Shown here: positions 33,758 through 40,606 of the stretch, one piece after another
How positions within the stretch are numbered: the first letter of the stretch is position 1
Layout: the number at the start of each line of letters is the position of its first letter
Assembly (NCBI GenBank): GCA_016208495.1
Contig: JACQXX010000102.1
Location: 1 to 41,897, forward strand
Reading direction: 5' to 3'
DNA length: 41,897 nucleotides
DNA from: Acidobacteriota bacterium
Lineage (GTDB): Bacteria > Acidobacteriota > Blastocatellia > Chloracidobacteriales > Chloracidobacteriaceae
The notes under the pieces: model-generated
Databases searched by the model: none
What the model was told of the DNA's origin: nothing
What the model saw: only the letters and a program-made list of their open reading frames with translations
Program-made: the position numbers and the translations under genes

Positions 33758-34190
33758 ATCTGGAGTGCTGCGGCTCAACGCAGCTTTGGAGTGCTGCGGC
33801 TTGACGCAGCTTTCAGCTTTGGGAAGCTTTGAGGATATGAGCGAAGGGATTTGAAGTAGAGGAACTTCTTGTGGTCGGTCTGGTAGAAACCGACTCTAGC
33901 GGAGAAATTTAGATTGCACCAGATGCGTGATTGGGAATTTACAGATTGTTTACAGCCATCTGAGCCGTAACCCAAATCCTAGAGGGCAAAATCAATCCAG
34001 TTGCCGCCCAAACCCCAGTCCGAAAAGTTCTGGATTTATACCGAAAAATCCCGCCAAATTTGCCTGTTCAAAGCGGTTATTCACGGTGTGTTTAACTTCG
34101 GCATTCTAAGCTGGTGAGCAACCGAACGATCTTTCAATCCCCAATGATTCTGATTTGTGGTTCATTACTCGCCAGAGAAGGATGGTGGTT
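33758..34190. other. 433-bp intergenic region between iorA-like and NHL genes
   Basis: Starts with the two 26-bp repeats (33762-33813). The rest, 33814-34190, has no convincing gene. An AGAAGGA (34176-34182) provides the ribosome-binding site for the NHL-repeat gene. Confidence 0.55.
33762..33813. repeat. 26-bp direct repeat, two copies, each with a hairpin
   Basis: Two adjacent copies (33762-33787 and 33788-33813) beginning GGAGTGCTGCGG and differing at 2 bases. Each contains a GCTGCG...CGCAGC stem. They overlap the upstream alternative start of the IorA-like gene. Confidence 0.92.
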
Positions 34191-37100
34191 ATGGTCACCT
34201 TGAGGTCGCCGCACTTTGTTATTTCTTTCATTCTTTTTGCAATGAGCTCAGTATTTTGGGTTCCTGCCAGCCTGACATCTGCTTCGTTTCTTCCGCTGCA
34301 ATCCGCTTCATTTTCAATTGTTGAACGCACACCAGTGGTCAATGAAGGAAATCAACTTCGATTGACGGTGATTGATGCAACTGGTCAACCGATTTCGGGT
34401 GTTGTCTGGGAATCCGGTAGCCCGGAAATTGTGACTGTTGAGTCCCAAACCGGAGTCCTGCACGGGGTTTTACAGGGAGTTGCCACGGTGACGGCTCGTC
34501 GGAATGCAGAGAGCACATCGGTGTTTGTCGTGGTGACGCGAGTCAGTTCCAATCGCGGCGCAACTGTGCCGGGTGAAACCAAAGTTGATACCCGAGGACG
34601 AGTCTATCTGACCGACCCGGTCAACAGCGTGGTTCTGCGCAAGGAAAGTCTTTCCGCGCCGGCTCAGCTTTTTGCCGGTTCAGAGTTAGCGCACGGCCAT
34701 CGGGATGGAAATCGGCTGGGTGCCTGGTTTGCCGGGCCAACCGCTGCCACGATTGACAACGGTGCGCTGGGCGGAGTGTATGTGGCTGACACGCTCAATC
34801 ATTGCATTCGCAAGGTTGGGTATGACGATCAGGTTTCAACCGTGGTGGGGAATGGTACCGCGGGAATCTTGACGGCTGACATCACGCCGCTTTCAAGCGC
34901 GGTTTTGCGCGGTCCACGTGGCGTGGCGATTGATACGGGTGGCAATCTGTTTGTCGCAGATACCGAAAATAACGCCATTTTTTATGTTGATTTTAACCGG
35001 CAGGAGATCCGTCTGCTGGCTGGAATGCCCGGTGAGGCGGGGCTGGCAGATGGAACTGGCCGCACCGCCCGGTTTGCTCATCCGCGAGGGCTGGCGCTCA
35101 GTCCAGATGGGCGACTGCTGGCGGTGGCTGACGAAGGAAACCGGGTGGTCCGACTGGTTTCAAAATCCGGGGTGGTCAAAACAGTCGGTCGCCAATCTGC
35201 CGCACGGGAATGGAAGACGAGTTCCGAAGATGAATTTTTGTTTCAAGCGCCACAATCGGTCAGCTTTGACGGGCAGGGAAATCTGTGTGTGGTTGACAAG
35301 GCCGAAGCCTACGTTGTGACCAATCCTGAGACGACCTCTCCCGAACGGATCCCGCTGGCTCAACCGGGCGTGTCGTTTGGACAGGCGGTGAGTGTGACTG
35401 TCCGGGGCTATCAGACGTTTGTGCTTGATGCCCAGGCCGCCAGCCCAGACGAGGCGGTCAAAGTGGTAACGATTGGCCCGCCGCGCATTAAAACCATCAG
35501 CCGGACGTCTGACCAGATCGAAGGTGGTGCCGAAGTTGTGGTTGATGGTCAAAATTTCGGACCCGAAACCCACGTTCTGCTGGGTGACCGGCTGGTTGAA
35601 GCTGCGGTCATCGAAAGTGCCACACGCTTGCGGTTTCATGTTCCGCCACAAAATGCGCCTGGGAAACGCACCCTTTCGATCCAAACCCGAGGCGGTCTGG
35701 TCCAGCAAAAGTTCGAAATCTTTGCCAAAACTTTTGAAGCCATGGCGGCTGGGGAAATCACGACCGTGGCGGGTGGGGTTCCGTACTCGGGCGACAGCGG
35801 CGTTGCTACCCTGGCCAGCTTGAAATTTCCGCGTTCGATTGCCATTGACGGTGCCGGAAATATGTTTATTGCTGATCGGCTCAATCATCGTGTTCGGCGG
35901 GTGGATGCCATTTCAGGCATTATTTCAACCGTTGCCGGAACCGGAGCGGCAGCCTATAACGGCGACGGGCAACCAGCCCTGAGTGCCAGTTTGAACTTCC
36001 CGACTGGTGTCGCGGTTGACCACGATGGGAATGTCTGGATTGCTGACCAGCTCAATCATCGGATTCGCCGGGTGGATGCCATGACGGGAATCATCACGAC
36101 GGTTGGTGGAACCGGGGTGGCTGGTTTGAGTGGTGACGGAGGACCAGCGACCAACGCACAACTCAATTCACCACAGGCAATTGTCTTTGATTCGGCTGAA
36201 AATGTGTTCCTGACAGATTTAGAAAATCATGCGGTTCGCCGGATTGATGCCATGACCGGTGTGATAACCACTGTGGCCGGGACCGGTATCAGCGGTTTTG
36301 GCGGCGACAACGATCTGGCCCAGCGGGCACGGCTCAATCAACCCTATGGATTGGCCGTTGACCAGTTTGACAATCTTTTCATTGCCGACACTGGCAATCA
36401 CCGGGTTCGCCGGGTGGATGCTGGGTCGGGTGTTATCACAACGGTGGCCGGAAACGGGATTGCAGACTTTCACGGAGACGGTGGCCCGGCTCCTCGTGCC
36501 AGCTTGAATCAACCCTATGGTGTCACGATTGACCTGACTGGAAATCTCATCATTGTCGACCGCAACAATGGTCGGATCCGCCGGGTTGACTTCGCCACCC
36601 AGGTTATGAGCACTGTGGCCGGCAATGGTTCGGATGATTTCAGCGGTGACGGCGGCCCCGCCGTCAGCGCCGGGTTATTGGATCCGGAAGCAGTTGCGGT
36701 TGATGGCAACGGGCGGTTGTTTATTGCCGACACCGAAAATAATCGAGTTCGGCTGGTTTCTCCGGATGGTGTCATCCAAACCGTGGTTGGAACTGAATTT
36801 GTCAGCGGTGACGGAGGGCCGGCGATTAACGCCAGTTTGAGCAACCCCTTCAAAGTGCTGATTGACCACCAGGGTAACCTGATTATTGCTGATTCTGAAA
36901 ACAATCGCGTGCGTCGCGTGGATCGCCAAACCTGGATCATTCACGGCGTGGCTGGAAACGGGGTTGAAGGTGACAGTGGTGACGGCGGACCAGCGGTTCT
37001 GTCACGGCTACACGATCCGGAAGGGCTGGCCATTGACCGGGCCGGGAACCTTTATATTGCCGACCAGGAAAATAATCGCATCCGCCGGATCAATGCCGCC

Positions 37101-38060
37101 ACCGGCGTGATTGTCAATTTTGCTGGAAATGGACAGGCTGGATTTGCGGGTGATGGCGGGCTGGCGACGCTGGCGACGTTGAATTCGCCGCGTGGGATCA
37201 CCATTGATGTCAACGATAATCTGTATCTGGCTGATCGGCTTAACCATCGCATTCGCCGGGTAGATGCCCAAACTGGTGTGATCACGACGATTGCTGGAAT
37301 GGGAACTGCCGGGTTTACCGGAGATGGCGGTCCAGCTATGTATGCCCATTTGAATTCACCGGAAGAAATTGTGTTTGACCAGCAGGGAAACCTCCTGATT
37401 GCTGATTTAGGCAATCACCGCATTCGTCGGATTGATGCCCGGACCAGTATTATCACGACAATCGCCGGGGTTGGCATTCCAGGTTTTAGCGGTGATGGGG
37501 GACCAGCCATGCTGGCACAACTCAATTCGCCGCATGGCATTGCGGTTGACGGGGCGGGCAATCTGTTTATTGCTGACCGTGATAATCATCGCCTCCGCCG
37601 GGTAGATGCCCAAACGGGAATCATCTCGACGATTGCGGGAACTGGGGAACAGGGCTACAGCGGAGACGGTCAGCCTGCCAGTGAGTGTCGCTTAAACTAT
37701 CCGCTGGGACTCGTCATTGACGGGGAGGGCAACCTCTGGCTGGCGAGTGGGTTCAACGATGCCATTCGGGTCATCCGGCAGGCGGCGGTTGGACTGCAGA
37801 GGGTCACAATCACTCAGGTCAACTTCCAGGCCCGGCGGTTGACGATTACTGGCACCGGGTTTGGTTCAACCGGCGCTCAGGTTTTGATCAATGGAACGGA
37901 TGCAACGGCATTTCTCAAATCCCAGACTGATACCAGCTTGATGCTCAAAGGGAAGAAAAAGAAATTGGGTCTCATCAATGGCACGAACCTGATCAGGGTG
38001 ATCGCGGGCGGTGTGAGTTCGAATCAATTTGAGTTTGATATCAGTCGAGATGAGTTTTAG
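34191..38060 (+). CDS. Giant secreted NHL-repeat protein with Ig-like and IPT/TIG domains
   Basis: A 1289-aa predicted exported protein. Signal peptide residues 1-~33. An Ig-like (Big2-type) domain at about 40-115 (VDATGQ-like, SPEIVTVESQTGVLHGVLQGVATVTA), a first NHL group to about 400, an IPT/TIG domain (~425-510: VVVDGQNFGPETHVLLGD), then roughly a dozen NHL units of ~56 residues with the consensus ITTVAGxGxxGFxGDGGPA and GNLFIADxxNHRIRRVD, and a C-terminal IPT-like domain (LTITGTGFGSTGAQVLINGTDA). NHL units form beta-propellers; this number suggests two propellers. Such proteins are abundant in Acidobacteriota and similar groups, and their ligands are unknown. AGAAGGA upstream of ATG 34191 decides the start over the earlier TTG 34155. 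Confidence 0.93.
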   Translation: MVTLRSPHFVISFILFAMSSVFWVPASLTSASFLPLQSASFSIVERTPVVNEGNQLRLTVIDATGQPISGVVWESGSPEIVTVESQTGVLHGVLQGVATVTARRNAESTSVFVVVTRVSSNRGATVPGETKVDTRGRVYLTDPVNSVVLRKESLSAPAQLFAGSELAHGHRDGNRLGAWFAGPTAATIDNGALGGVYVADTLNHCIRKVGYDDQVSTVVGNGTAGILTADITPLSSAVLRGPRGVAIDTGGNLFVADTENNAIFYVDFNRQEIRLLAGMPGEAGLADGTGRTARFAHPRGLALSPDGRLLAVADEGNRVVRLVSKSGVVKTVGRQSAAREWKTSSEDEFLFQAPQSVSFDGQGNLCVVDKAEAYVVTNPETTSPERIPLAQPGVSFGQAVSVTVRGYQTFVLDAQAASPDEAVKVVTIGPPRIKTISRTSDQIEGGAEVVVDGQNFGPETHVLLGDRLVEAAVIESATRLRFHVPPQNAPGKRTLSIQTRGGLVQQKFEIFAKTFEAMAAGEITTVAGGVPYSGDSGVATLASLKFPRSIAIDGAGNMFIADRLNHRVRRVDAISGIISTVAGTGAAAYNGDGQPALSASLNFPTGVAVDHDGNVWIADQLNHRIRRVDAMTGIITTVGGTGVAGLSGDGGPATNAQLNSPQAIVFDSAENVFLTDLENHAVRRIDAMTGVITTVAGTGISGFGGDNDLAQRARLNQPYGLAVDQFDNLFIADTGNHRVRRVDAGSGVITTVAGNGIADFHGDGGPAPRASLNQPYGVTIDLTGNLIIVDRNNGRIRRVDFATQVMSTVAGNGSDDFSGDGGPAVSAGLLDPEAVAVDGNGRLFIADTENNRVRLVSPDGVIQTVVGTEFVSGDGGPAINASLSNPFKVLIDHQGNLIIADSENNRVRRVDRQTWIIHGVAGNGVEGDSGDGGPAVLSRLHDPEGLAIDRAGNLYIADQENNRIRRINAATGVIVNFAGNGQAGFAGDGGLATLATLNSPRGITIDVNDNLYLADRLNHRIRRVDAQTGVITTIAGMGTAGFTGDGGPAMYAHLNSPEEIVFDQQGNLLIADLGNHRIRRIDARTSIITTIAGVGIPGFSGDGGPAMLAQLNSPHGIAVDGAGNLFIADRDNHRLRRVDAQTGIISTIAGTGEQGYSGDGQPASECRLNYPLGLVIDGEGNLWLASGFNDAIRVIRQAAVGLQRVTITQVNFQARRLTITGTGFGSTGAQVLINGTDATAFLKSQTDTSLMLKGKKKKLGLINGTNLIRVIAGGVSSNQFEFDISRDEF

Positions 38061-38162: not shown

Positions 38163-38699
38163 TTACTCCTGGCTGTAAATCATTTTGACATATTTGCAAT
38201 CAGAAACAGCCGTGCGGTTGGGTTGGGCCAGATAAGAATTCAAACAGGCCAAATCCTGTTCAATTTGACGGCGTTCCTGGATGGACAATTGGGGAACCGC
38301 CAGATCAACGGCGATTGCCCCAGCAAGTTGGTATTTTATTGATTCAAGGATGTTCTGCTTGACAGTTTCTGAGTCAGATCGTGAGCCTTTAACACTTGCC
38401 TCGATATAAAGAATCATCTCTTTGGATGTCGGATAATAGAGCAATCCGCCACCATAACACTTGGCAATTACACTCCACTGGTGACCTTTTATTCTTAATG
38501 ATGCAGCAAGTTTGTATGATTCTTTGGCGACCTGTTTTCTTAGCGCATCATGCTGCCACTCCGTAGCTTTCTTCGCGAGGAGCACAGGGTTTTCCAAATC
38601 GCTTTGGTTTAAATGTTCTTTGGGTAGGGGAACAGTTTGTAAAGAAAAAAGCAAAACAAGGATTGCCAGTAGATTAAATAACTTTAAGGGTACCCACAT
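38163..38699 (-). CDS. Signal-peptide protein overlapping the upstream L,D-transpeptidase-like gene
   Basis: A 178-aa protein with an N-terminal signal peptide (LFNLLAILVLLFSLQTVPL), so probably periplasmic. The mature part is helical with a short beta patch (WSVIAKCYGGGLLYYPTSKEMILYIEASV) and three cysteines; no family recognised. The start overlaps the end of the preceding minus-strand gene by 26 bp. An AAGGAG nine bases before the ATG, lying inside that gene, gives it its own ribosome-binding site. The arrangement is that of a cotranscribed enzyme and its dedicated partner or immunity protein; that role is inference. Confidence 0.72.
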   Translation of the reverse strand: MWVPLKLFNLLAILVLLFSLQTVPLPKEHLNQSDLENPVLLAKKATEWQHDALRKQVAKESYKLAASLRIKGHQWSVIAKCYGGGLLYYPTSKEMILYIEASVKGSRSDSETVKQNILESIKYQLAGAIAVDLAVPQLSIQERRQIEQDLACLNSYLAQPNRTAVSDCKYVKMIYSQE

Positions 38700-39285
38700 T
38701 CTTTCTATCTCCTTGCCTTGATAGAATCAGAAAACGATAAAGATCAGTCCATTGGTCAGGATTGGTGGTTGCACAACCGGCAGTTACTTGCCCTGGGTGC
38801 AAATATCTTGCATTTTGCCCCTGAACTGCTACACCAGTTCCAATCAAAAACCAAGTTTGAGAAAAAACTGATTGCCCAAGATAGCCGTTTCCTAACTGAT
38901 GCGGGAAGTCTGGAATTTGAATATTGTGAGTTCCTTGTGGAATTGGAGACCTTGGATAAGTCAACGTACCAATCCTTTTGTTTCCATTGTAAGTGATTTC
39001 ACCTTTTGTAGTATTGAACACAAGTCTTGCTGGCCCACGGTAGACAGGAAGAGGGAATCCAAGGTTTGTCTTTCCTTGTGAAGTAAGCCTCACCGAAGCT
39101 TTTTTCCCCCGATAAACTCCTTCATAAATGGTGAAGTAGTCCCGCCGTTCACTGGAATTTTCTTCTTGTCGGGTTTCTTGATAATCAACCCGGAGGTATT
39201 CAGGTAAGGCGATGATTTCACCGCTTGGCTCAAGTCTGACACGAAGCCAGCCATTTGCGTCTCCGATAATGTATCTATTTGACAT
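38674..39285 (-). CDS. Putative L,D-transpeptidase-like (YkuD-fold-like) protein
   Basis: A 203-aa protein with no signal peptide. The first ~100 residues are a beta-rich region (GWLRVRLEPSGEIIALPEYL; IYEGVYRGKKASVRLT; ITYNGNKRIGTLTYP). The second half, SPIPQGTHNIQIPDFPHQLG, then WFLIGTG, RYLHPGQVTAGCATT and WTDLYRFLILSR, has the layout of a cysteine L,D-transpeptidase or Tlde1-like domain, with His163 and Cys171 as candidate catalytic residues. The HGC motif is changed to AGC, so the assignment is uncertain. It lacks a secretion signal, while its overlapping downstream partner has one, which would suit an effector exported by another route with a periplasmic immunity protein. Weak Shine-Dalgarno; ATG 39285. 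Confidence 0.6.
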   Translation of the reverse strand: MSNRYIIGDANGWLRVRLEPSGEIIALPEYLRVDYQETRQEENSSERRDYFTIYEGVYRGKKASVRLTSQGKTNLGFPLPVYRGPARLVFNTTKGEITYNGNKRIGTLTYPRSPIPQGTHNIQIPDFPHQLGNGYLGQSVFSQTWFLIGTGVAVQGQNARYLHPGQVTAGCATTNPDQWTDLYRFLILSRQGDRKNVGTLKVI

Positions 39286-39457: not shown

Positions 39458-39560
39458 GCACTCCGAAGGATTGCCGTTCGGATAGCCGGTCGGTTGCTCG
39501 GCTACAGCGAGCTACCACCGGTCACAGGTCACCCCACCTTTCATCCCGAAGGGATGCGGC
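39458..39560. repeat. REP-like unit 1
   Basis: About 103 bp with three structured parts: GCACTCCGAAGGATTGCC...TTCGGA, a GAGCTACCACCGGTCACAGG part, and CATCCCGAAGGGATG followed by CGGC. It ends 9 bp beyond the 3' end of the Y1 transposase gene. Confidence 0.88.
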
Positions 39561-40060
39561 TCATCAGTTCAGGTCCACAGGTAACGTTCATCATATTCGA
39601 CGCCGCTTCGCTTGAGGAATGCCAGATATTCATCCTGGAAGGTCCATTTTCGGTGATGGTTTTCCTGGTTGTGGATATACACTTTGGCAGCTTCAACTTG
39701 TGATGAACTGACGGTAAATGCCCCATATCCTTCCTGCCAGGAAAATTGAGGCAGCCGGTGTTTCTCGTGAATCCACATTGAGGAAGATCGTTTTAACTCA
39801 CGCACCACTTCGGCCAGACAATGATTTGACCGTAGCCGCATAAGAATATGAACGTGGTCGCTTGTTCCGCCTACAGCTAGAGAAACTCCGTTGAGCGTTT
39901 GGATTGAATTGACCAGAAACGCATAAAGCTGATCGCGAAGGGCTGCGGAAATGAAGGGCTTCCGATTTTTGGTGCTGAAGACGACGTGATAATGGAGTGA
40001 TAAATGGGTTGACGCCATACGGGTGTAAATGGATGACTTCGCCGCATCCCTTCGGGATGC
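39541..40060 (-). mobile_element. Y1 transposase module bounded by inverted hairpins
   Basis: TCATCCCGAAGGGATGCGGC (39541-39560) and GCCGCATCCCTTCGGGATGC (40041-40060) face each other around the tnpA gene. Such hairpin ends fit an IS200-like or REP/RAYT unit. The exact ends of the mobile unit cannot be fixed from one copy. Confidence 0.65.
39569..40018 (-). CDS. tnpA: IS200-like / REP-associated Y1 (HUH) transposase
   Basis: A 149-aa single-strand DNA transposase of the IS200/IS605 TnpA or RAYT type. Seen: ASTHLSLHYHVVFSTKNRKP at the N-terminus, GTSDHVHILMRL with the HUH motif (His-Val-His), FSWQEGYGAFTVSSS, and VYIHNQENHHRK with the candidate catalytic tyrosine. It recognises hairpins and cuts single-stranded DNA by a 5'-phosphotyrosine intermediate. 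The frame is open to 40087, but those codons come from the flanking repeat; ATG 40018 matches the family's start. The gene lies between inverted CATCCCGAAGGGATG hairpins (39541-39560 and 40041-40060) and near further REP-like units, so a REP-mobilising RAYT is likely. The HUH and Tyr motifs are intact. Confidence 0.93.
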   Translation of the reverse strand: MASTHLSLHYHVVFSTKNRKPFISAALRDQLYAFLVNSIQTLNGVSLAVGGTSDHVHILMRLRSNHCLAEVVRELKRSSSMWIHEKHRLPQFSWQEGYGAFTVSSSQVEAAKVYIHNQENHHRKWTFQDEYLAFLKRSGVEYDERYLWT

Positions 40061-40083
40061 AATCAGATATCGGATTGGGTTTA

Positions 40084-40187
40084 GCACTCCGAAGGGTTGC
40101 CATTCGAAGTGCCGATTGATTTACTGATCTGAGCTTGCCACCGGTAACAGGTTGCCCCTCCCTTTTCTCATCCCAAAGGGATGCGGC
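40084..40187. repeat. REP-like unit 2
   Basis: Same order as unit 1: GCACTCCGAAGGGTTGCC...TTCGAAGTGC, CTTGCCACCGGTAACAGG, then CATCCCAAAGGGATG-CGGC. It is preceded by ATCGGATTGGG, as is unit 4. It lies upstream of the transposase gene. Confidence 0.88.
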
Positions 40188-40227
40188 TCAATGCTTCACA
40201 TCAAACCAAACAACCAGAAAACAAGAA

Positions 40228-40278
40228 TGCCATTTGCCAAACCACCAGGTTGATACCTGAATGGAATCGCAAATGGCA
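40228..40278. repeat. TGCCATTTGC / GCAAATGGCA inverted repeat
   Basis: Perfect 10-bp arms (40228-40237 and 40269-40278) with a 31-bp spacer. A degenerate hairpin of the unit type follows at about 40345-40375. Nothing coding is seen here. Confidence 0.7.
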
Positions 40279-40404
40279 CAACAAGAAAACCAAAATTGAA
40301 ACGGTTAAATGACATCCTGGTTTTCAGGCAGATGCTTTTGATTTGCCTTCCAATGGATTGCCATTTGGAAAGCAACTCGGCTTCAAGAATTGAAAAAAGG
40401 TTTC

Positions 40405-40476
40405 GCACCCCGAAGAATTGCCATTCGGAGTGCTGGTTGATTGACCAATCTGAGCTTGCCACCGGTAACAGGTTGT
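40405..40476. repeat. REP-like unit 3 (partial)
   Basis: GCACCCCGAAGAATTGCC...TTCGGAGTGC and the CTTGCCACCGGTAACAGG part are present, but the CATCCC hairpin is missing; the unit stops where ATCGGATTGG and unit 4 begin, as if unit 4 had inserted here. Confidence 0.82.
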
Positions 40477-40500
40477 TTTTCAGGTATCGGATTGGCTTGA

Positions 40501-40606
40501 GCACTCCGAAGGATTGCAGTTCGGATAGCCGGTCGGTTGCGAGGCTTTGCGAGCTACCACCGGAACAGGTTGCCCCTCTCCATCTTTCATCCCGAAGGGA
40601 TGCGGC
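40501..40606. repeat. REP-like unit 4
   Basis: Complete unit, very close to unit 1 (both contain GATAGCCGGTCGGTTGC, GCGAGCTACCACCGG and CATCCCGAAGGGATG-CGGC). It lies just beyond the 3' end of the gene at 40645. Confidence 0.88.

Follow-up and report, generated by a model that had tools for sequence, protein, structure and literature searches.

Three-hairpin arms around a Y1 transposase of Acidobacteriota: a seemingly little-described system of mobile repeats akin to bacterial REPs

The transposase locus and its repeat units

The window, that is, the whole stretch of 41,897 nucleotides analysed here, is one whole contig (JACQXX010000102.1) of an 8.38-Mb genome of the Chloracidobacteriaceae (Acidobacteriota). 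It contains a gene for a HUH transposase, tnpA, intact as the preliminary description of this DNA had proposed and complete with its stop codon, and four repeat units (Table 1), which that description had placed at 39458, 40084, 40405 and 40501 and which are indeed direct repeats, all in one orientation. Two further statements held in part. The three structured parts ascribed to every unit are present in units 1 and 4, but units 2 and 3 have a decayed hp2, and hp3 is missing from the latter; inverted hairpins, described on both sides of the gene, are found there for hp3, whereas units 1 to 4 themselves point one way.

Table 1. Features around tnpA, in positions of the window.
Feature	Position	Strand	Remarks
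Unit 1, complete arm, 3' side of tnpA	39458-39556	+	All three hairpins kept
Unit 1 hp1	39458-39474	+	One mismatch in hairpin
Unit 1 linker	39475-39485	+	Ends in ATAG
Unit 1 hp2	39486-39521	+	Followed by spacer
Unit 1 hp3	39542-39556	+	CATCCCGAAGGGATG hairpin
tnpA, Y1/HUH transposase, 149 aa plus stop	39569-40018	-	DHVH, WQ, YIHNQENHH
hp3 left over from the right arm, opposite in orientation to unit 1	40044-40060	-	Inverted CATCCCGAAGGGATG hairpin
GATATCGGATTGG edge word before unit 2	40066-40078	+	Read as the repeat's outer edge
Unit 2, oriented as unit 1	40084-40187	+	hp2 decayed, hp3 intact
Unit 2 hp3	40169-40183	+	One change relative to CATCCCGAAGGGATG
Unit 3, truncated	40405-40475	+	hp1 and hp2 decayed, no hp3
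GGTATCGGATTGG edge word before unit 4, like GATATCGGATTGG	40483-40495	+	Outer-edge reading
Unit 4, complete arm	40501-40602	+	All three hairpins kept
Unit 4 hp1	40501-40517	+	One mismatch in hairpin
Unit 4 linker	40518-40528	+	Ends in ATAG
Unit 4 hp2	40529-40563	+	Long hairpin
Unit 4 hp3	40588-40602	+	CATCCCGAAGGGATG hairpin

To the left of tnpA stands one complete arm; to its right, a mirror arm is represented by its inner end, hp3, with hp2 and hp1 absent. Beyond this remnant follow three more arms (units 2 to 4), one of them complete. Since all four units run in the same direction, we read the right arm of the element as lost except for hp3, and because its outer part is gone, the element, judged from its sequence, is probably immobile. 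The fold of unit 1 on the plus strand beat 200 of 200 dinucleotide shuffles (z -3.68), and units 2, 3 and 4 taken singly were unremarkable against theirs (z -1.24, -1.36 and -1.03). A strict three-hairpin scan gave a score of 0 on either side of the window tnpA, owing to the imperfect hp1 and the lost right arm, and likewise at another locus, L032. The arm nature of the window units is recognised through comparison with relatives, the window being one decayed member of a wider set.

The preliminary description had also suggested that unit 4 interrupted unit 3 at a specific target word. This part found no support, the word being found before many half-units of the genome: GGATTG precedes 46 and a TTGGTTTTG-type word 49 of 102 distinct own-genome half-units, a few of which are spurious matches, and neither precedes the remaining 7. 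Since such words stand before most half-units, we read them as the repeat's own outer edge and reject ATCGGATTGG as a proven target; a ATCGGATTGG-type word could still have begun as one.

The window TnpA scores 84.3 bits against Pfam Y1_Tnp (cut-off 23) and passes the NCBIfam IS200/IS605 model with 62.2 bits (cut-off 55). An AlphaFold2 model built from a 40-sequence alignment (mean pLDDT 87.7) best matched the structures of ISDra2 and IS608 TnpA with end DNA (E 6e-9 to 1e-8); the REP transposase of E. coli, in complex with its REP hairpin, follows at rank 30 (E 6e-6). Sequence profiles concur, and Pfam, NCBIfam and fold all place the protein in the IS200/IS605 transposase family. Quentin et al. 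2018 (PMC6006769) sort TnpAY1 proteins into subclasses, with Y---Q--HH as the motif given for subclass 1.2, and with YIHNQENHH, DHVH and a length of 149 aa the window TnpA agrees with that subclass, a placement made by motif alone. Membership of the RAYTs (TnpAREP class 2) was rejected, the motif being Y---Q and not Y---NP and the score against NCBIfam REP_Tyr_transpos 25.7 bits for a cut-off of 80. Among homologues, taken as the best 80 of 528 confirmed relatives from one scan of 84,980 species genomes, the strict Y---Q--HH motif is present in 76 and [DN]HuH in all 80.

Elsewhere in the window, a 203-aa frame at 38674-39285 (minus strand) has no Pfam match and carries an HPG..T.GC stretch near its end, and 34155-38060 (plus strand) encodes a protein of 1301 aa that combines NHL repeats with TIG domains and bacterial Ig-like domains.

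Arms at homologous genes and dispersed doublets

Arms with the order hp1, linker, hp2, spacer, hp3 are directed outward from the tnpA homologues. In the same best 80 of 528 relatives, an outward arm (score of at least 20) stands upstream in 46 of 80 and, inverted, downstream in 42 of 79, with 32 loci having both; shuffled flanks gave 2 hits in 159 and distant windows 0 in 201. The scan in the opposite orientation also found matches (17 of 80 upstream, 21 of 79 downstream), partly because the tolerances of the pattern are nearly symmetrical. At further loci of the class (30, less 5 dropped as duplicates of earlier ones and 3 without a located frame), an arm with a score of at least 18 was present on at least one side in 9 of 22, compared with 0 of 44 shuffles and 1 of 63 distant windows, and the strict scan found no arm at the other 13. 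TAG lies at the foot of hp2 in 85 of 97 arms (TTAG 47, GTAG 32, ATAG 6), ATAG being the form of the window units, and in 53 of 67 a distance of exactly 18.5 nt separates the hp1 centre from hp2. In 48 arms of regular geometry, chosen for having hairpins so that the pairing percentage itself proves little, 14 of 22 pairs show both-sided changes, a result reached by 0 of 500 shuffles.

As read from genome sequences, this architecture recurs across phyla, arms flanking homologues in Acidobacteriota, Verrucomicrobiota, Planctomycetota and Methylococcaceae. Two Bacteroidota plasmids carry relatives as well: in Persicobacter, three hairpins and a TTAG linker, missed by the strict scan, are visible by eye upstream and mirrored downstream, and on the Bernardetia plasmid three hairpins were not seen by eye. 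A mirror-score test was dropped as main evidence, as 24 of 78 scores exceeded the 99th percentile of controls that share related arms, but so did 16 direct-orientation scores. Three loci titled Akkermansia muciniphila or Klebsiella pneumoniae (L042, L053, L077) come from environmental MAGs among Verrucomicrobia/Planctomycete-type matches, and their titles look misassigned.

The genome-wide search called for by the preliminary description turned up many further copies of the unit. With unit 4 as a blastn query, at least 72 matches were obtained in the own genome (40 of 128 candidates scored), and a search for the arm's core, with 3 mismatches allowed, found 156, against 0 for its backwards-read version. 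Head-to-head doublets take in 64 of 80 distinct copies (60 loci), arm A being joined with arm B in 33 of 34 distinct doublets, and a single example folds as one long structure (z -11.7). This head-to-head, dispersed and gene-less layout, that of REPINs, was seen in the own genome and in two others, G015 and G131; the GTAG form of the REP foot is that of 32 of the 97 arms above.

Three arm families, with 156, 23 and 19 pattern matches (controls 0), occur in the own genome and adjoin different TnpAs. Among its nine Y1 matches, L034, L035, L037 and L038 stand within the second family, and L033 adjoins the third, whose pattern was built from doublets, so that the 19 matches leave out L033's own arm, a gapped variant. 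Several of these Y1 copies look altered or broken: L035 has DYVH for DHVH, L034 another C terminus, and L037 and L038 are cut. At the DNA level, relatives of the window family were found in 1 of 58 genomes, namely the own genome itself.

Matches to an arm covariance model (E<=0.01; up to 35 candidates scored per genome) are present in 82 of 118 genomes of the class and TnpA (E<=1e-10) in 89. With TnpA taken at E<=1e-40, 70 genomes have both, 9 TnpA only, 12 the arm only and 27 neither (Fisher p 3e-10), a table inflated by arms that flank tnpA; with at least 5 arms, the counts are 46, 33, 4 and 35 (p 4e-7), and both tables ignore kinship. Copies in genomes lacking such a transposase had been named beforehand as an observation that would speak against the system. 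Co-occurrence held over the 118 genomes, but of the 39 without TnpA at E<=1e-40, 12 carry one or more matches to the unit (E<=0.01) and 4 carry at least 5; two of these four are 83-87% complete and the other two have weaker TnpA matches (E ~1e-24 to 1e-26). No arm match was found in 9 of the 79 class genomes with a strong TnpA. In 18 genomes picked for arms at tnpA, the model matched 2 to 147 times each (150 scored), 3 genomes, among them both of Methylobacter tundripaludum, having only 2.

Apparent mobility of whole elements and spread of the doublets

In two other genomes, whole elements appear from their sequences to have moved as insertion sequences do. G015 holds three arm-tnpA-arm elements (L280-L282) of 689-693 bp that share 85.6-94.1% of their letters, while identity in the flanks is 25.6-51.2%, the 51.2% belonging to one left flank pair; in G131, the genome of L078, L305 and L306 are 92.2% identical over ~850 bp, with flanks at 25.3 and 39.5% (shuffled control: mean 30.8, maximum 42.3). 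Identity ends sharply at hp1. These are the copies at unrelated sites with common ends by which an IS is recognised, and they come from G015 and G131; the window element has lost its right arm. A single element, 86% similar between its copies, also occurs with unrelated flanks in genomes from two families of the class. At other tnpA loci (L052/L206, L221/L223, L091/L239 and those of Methylobacter), different species or genera have the same neighbouring genes, which counts against pure IS behaviour. At L058 and L101, both verrucomicrobial tnpA loci, the flanking genes are conserved on both sides, but no blastn match of 150 nt or more was listed between the two tnpA genes; this may reflect insertion more than once at the same place or an old divergence there.

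We consider it likely that the arms are the TnpA-recognised ends of an IS-like element and that the head-to-head doublets are its gene-less, REPIN-like derivatives, our confidence having been lowered somewhat since the strict scan misses the window locus. A full element would run from arm through tnpA to inverted arm (~0.69-0.85 kb where measured) and end at hp1 on both sides; in each arm, hp1 would be followed by a linker of ~9-13 nt, then by the long hairpin hp2, a ~20-nt spacer and, closest to tnpA, hp3. The last letters of the linker are usually NTAG, which borders the base of hp2 as GT[AG]G does in REPs. By analogy, we infer that the Y1 transposase recognises the arms as folded single-stranded DNA, binding them on one strand with hp2 and the TAG foot in the parts of REP hairpin and guide, that cleavage proceeds through Tyr114, and that the intermediates are single-stranded. 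The two extra hairpins may set the register or hold two arms together. Arm pairs without tnpA would then be non-autonomous derivatives equivalent to REPINs, each TnpA lineage would have arm families of its own, and doublets could still be substrates in trans for the window TnpA.

A serious, if doubtful, competitor is an ordinary IS200-group IS with unusually complex ends and MITE-like internal-deletion derivatives, and nothing more REP-like. It would account for the NCBIfam models, of which IS200 is passed and the REP transposase one missed by far, for a fold closest to IS608 and ISDra2, and for multi-copy whole elements in unrelated flanks. IS200 family ends are generally single subterminal hairpins. 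The arms found here, however, are mirror copies with inverted TAG feet, the doublets far outnumber tnpA in several genomes, and several tnpA loci are syntenic across genera, like housekeeping-like RAYTs, all of which speaks against this competitor.

Filled and empty sites in congeners, a comparison proposed at the outset, showed no G015 doublet where the site is readable, with no exact junction. At nine G015 doublet sites in five congeners, no exact empty site was found; the flanks matched at 70-94%, and the junctions were unreadable because the intergenic DNA is too diverged. At the L252 site (G068, G110, G111, G116) and the L254 site (G110), where both flanks lie on one contig, there is no doublet, and one-sided comparison at the L240, L241 and L249 sites revealed no G015-type doublet beside the shared flank where readable; at the L249 site, G068 carries different hairpins. 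IS200/IS605 elements insert next to a fixed short target without duplicating it; in G015 and G131, hp1 is preceded by recurring short words, with no empty site to read beside them.

What surrounds the doublets bears on how they spread. In the own genome, 20 of 41 distinct doublet loci lie in or beside another, TA-flanked MITE, its terminal repeat being nearby. Other, free own-genome copies have in common an outer inverted word around CACGTGTAGGTTTTTG, and in G015 and G131, too, doublets lie between outer inverted repeats, which differ in sequence. Because of these MITE ends and outer repeats, the copy number is not creditable to TnpA alone; another transposase may account for some of the spread, and what moves may at times extend beyond the doublet. 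That TnpA made all 156 core matches was rejected on the same 20 of 41 loci. One could go further and see the doublets as passengers in MITEs moved by other transposases, for example of the IS630/Tc1 type, with TnpA at most a past source. These surroundings speak for such a reading, which we nevertheless hold to be unlikely: about half of the own loci are without that MITE, some G131 and G015 doublets are without outer repeats, tnpA-bearing elements end at hp1, and the presence of TnpA and of arms is associated over the 118 class genomes.

The TA-flanked MITE, with ends like TAAGGGACTGTAAAAAATCAACTTCC, holds the doublet inside it (for example at L172, L173, L183 and L198 of the own genome), and L183 and L198 are MITE copies in which the doublet has shrunk to a short joint. 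Among 30 of 40 matches listed, no MITE copy without the doublet was found, save deletion derivatives and truncated ends.

That the hairpins are mainly regulatory, as terminators or in translation control near tnpA and its neighbours, and not transposition substrates, is very improbable: hp3 does lie near the tnpA start at many loci and REP-type hairpin repeats can act in RNA (as stated in PMC3733652), but mirror arms flank the gene with constant spacing and TAG foot, gene-less doublets occur throughout the genome, and Rfam families were matched in 0 of nine loci.

Relation to known transposases and repeats

The REP- or REPtron-like association proposed in the preliminary description, with three-part units longer than ordinary REPs, is supported by these comparisons. 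Like the REPtrons of REP/REPIN/RAYT systems, the elements have a Y1 gene between inverted hairpin repeats and a TAG-type foot at the long hairpin, and head-to-head doublets occur in tens to hundreds, with several families per genome. Unlike them, the arms measure ~95 nt, each having two additional short hairpins whose distances are fixed, the commonest foot is TTAG, the motif is of class 1 and not Y---NP, and whole elements look mobile. The tnpA-only elements of the IS200/IS605 family resemble the present ones in transposase family and fold, element size and end hairpins, and differ in lacking mirror-inverted three-hairpin arms and doublet populations, their ends being described as single subterminal hairpins (PMC6006769).

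With respect to subclass 1.2, Table 1 of PMC6006769 gives no REP, and its account of the subclass describes members, mostly from Cyanobacteria and Bacteroidetes, generally without terminal structures or IS properties. The proteins studied here are like that subclass in Y---Q--HH, DHuH, WQ and a length near 148 aa. They are unlike its published account in that three-hairpin arms flank many members (46 of 80 and 42 of 79) and that some elements, in G015 and G131, are present as IS-like copies. If our reading is true, the published "subclass 1.2 without REP" would need correction.

Class 3 TnpAY1 in the same paper, with ~600 structures in Solibacter usitatus and a suggested position between IS and REPtron, shares the atypical high-copy hairpins beside a Y1 gene and the occurrence in Acidobacteria and Planctomycetes, but as described there has a CnGA foot and a Y----Q motif in place of the TAG foot and Y---Q--HH found here. 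Di Nocera et al. 2013 (PMC3733652) reported GTAG repeats in PVC bacteria, which are likewise GTAG-footed palindromes of Verrucomicrobia and Planctomycetes with head-to-head dimers, yet are given as single hairpins of 20-40 bp; the arms are set apart from them by this description rather than by consensus sequence, and it is possible that some PVC GTAG repeats are the hp2 of such arms, in partial overlap with known repeats.

Word searches of the open-access literature did not find three-hairpin arms described with this transposase type; as a set of mobile repeats akin to bacterial REPs, the system appears to have been little described. It bears on how REP repeats arise from transposons, REP transposases being without evidence of their own mobility according to PMC8266576. 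If our reading is true, a single transposase type would show both states, mobile whole elements and gene-less doublets in tens to hundreds, and three hairpins at fixed spacing make a well-defined substrate on which binding and cleavage could be assayed. More tentatively, and with somewhat less than even confidence, we suggest that Y1 transposases of the subclass 1.2 type form a single-strand transposon of a kind apart, bounded by mirror arms of three hairpins and acting both as autonomous IS and as source of REPIN-like doublets in several phyla, and that they are a living intermediate between IS200/IS605 and domesticated REP transposases, the extra hairpins setting strand, register or dimer geometry.

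A minor observation concerns the outer inverted repeats around the G131 doublets L289-L304, which contain TTATACACA, matched in 10 of 16 on the left, in 9 of 16 inverted on the right and in 6 on both sides. TTATACACA fits TTWTNCACA, the DnaA-box consensus as quoted in PMC6006769, a fit that may be the chance use of a MITE end.
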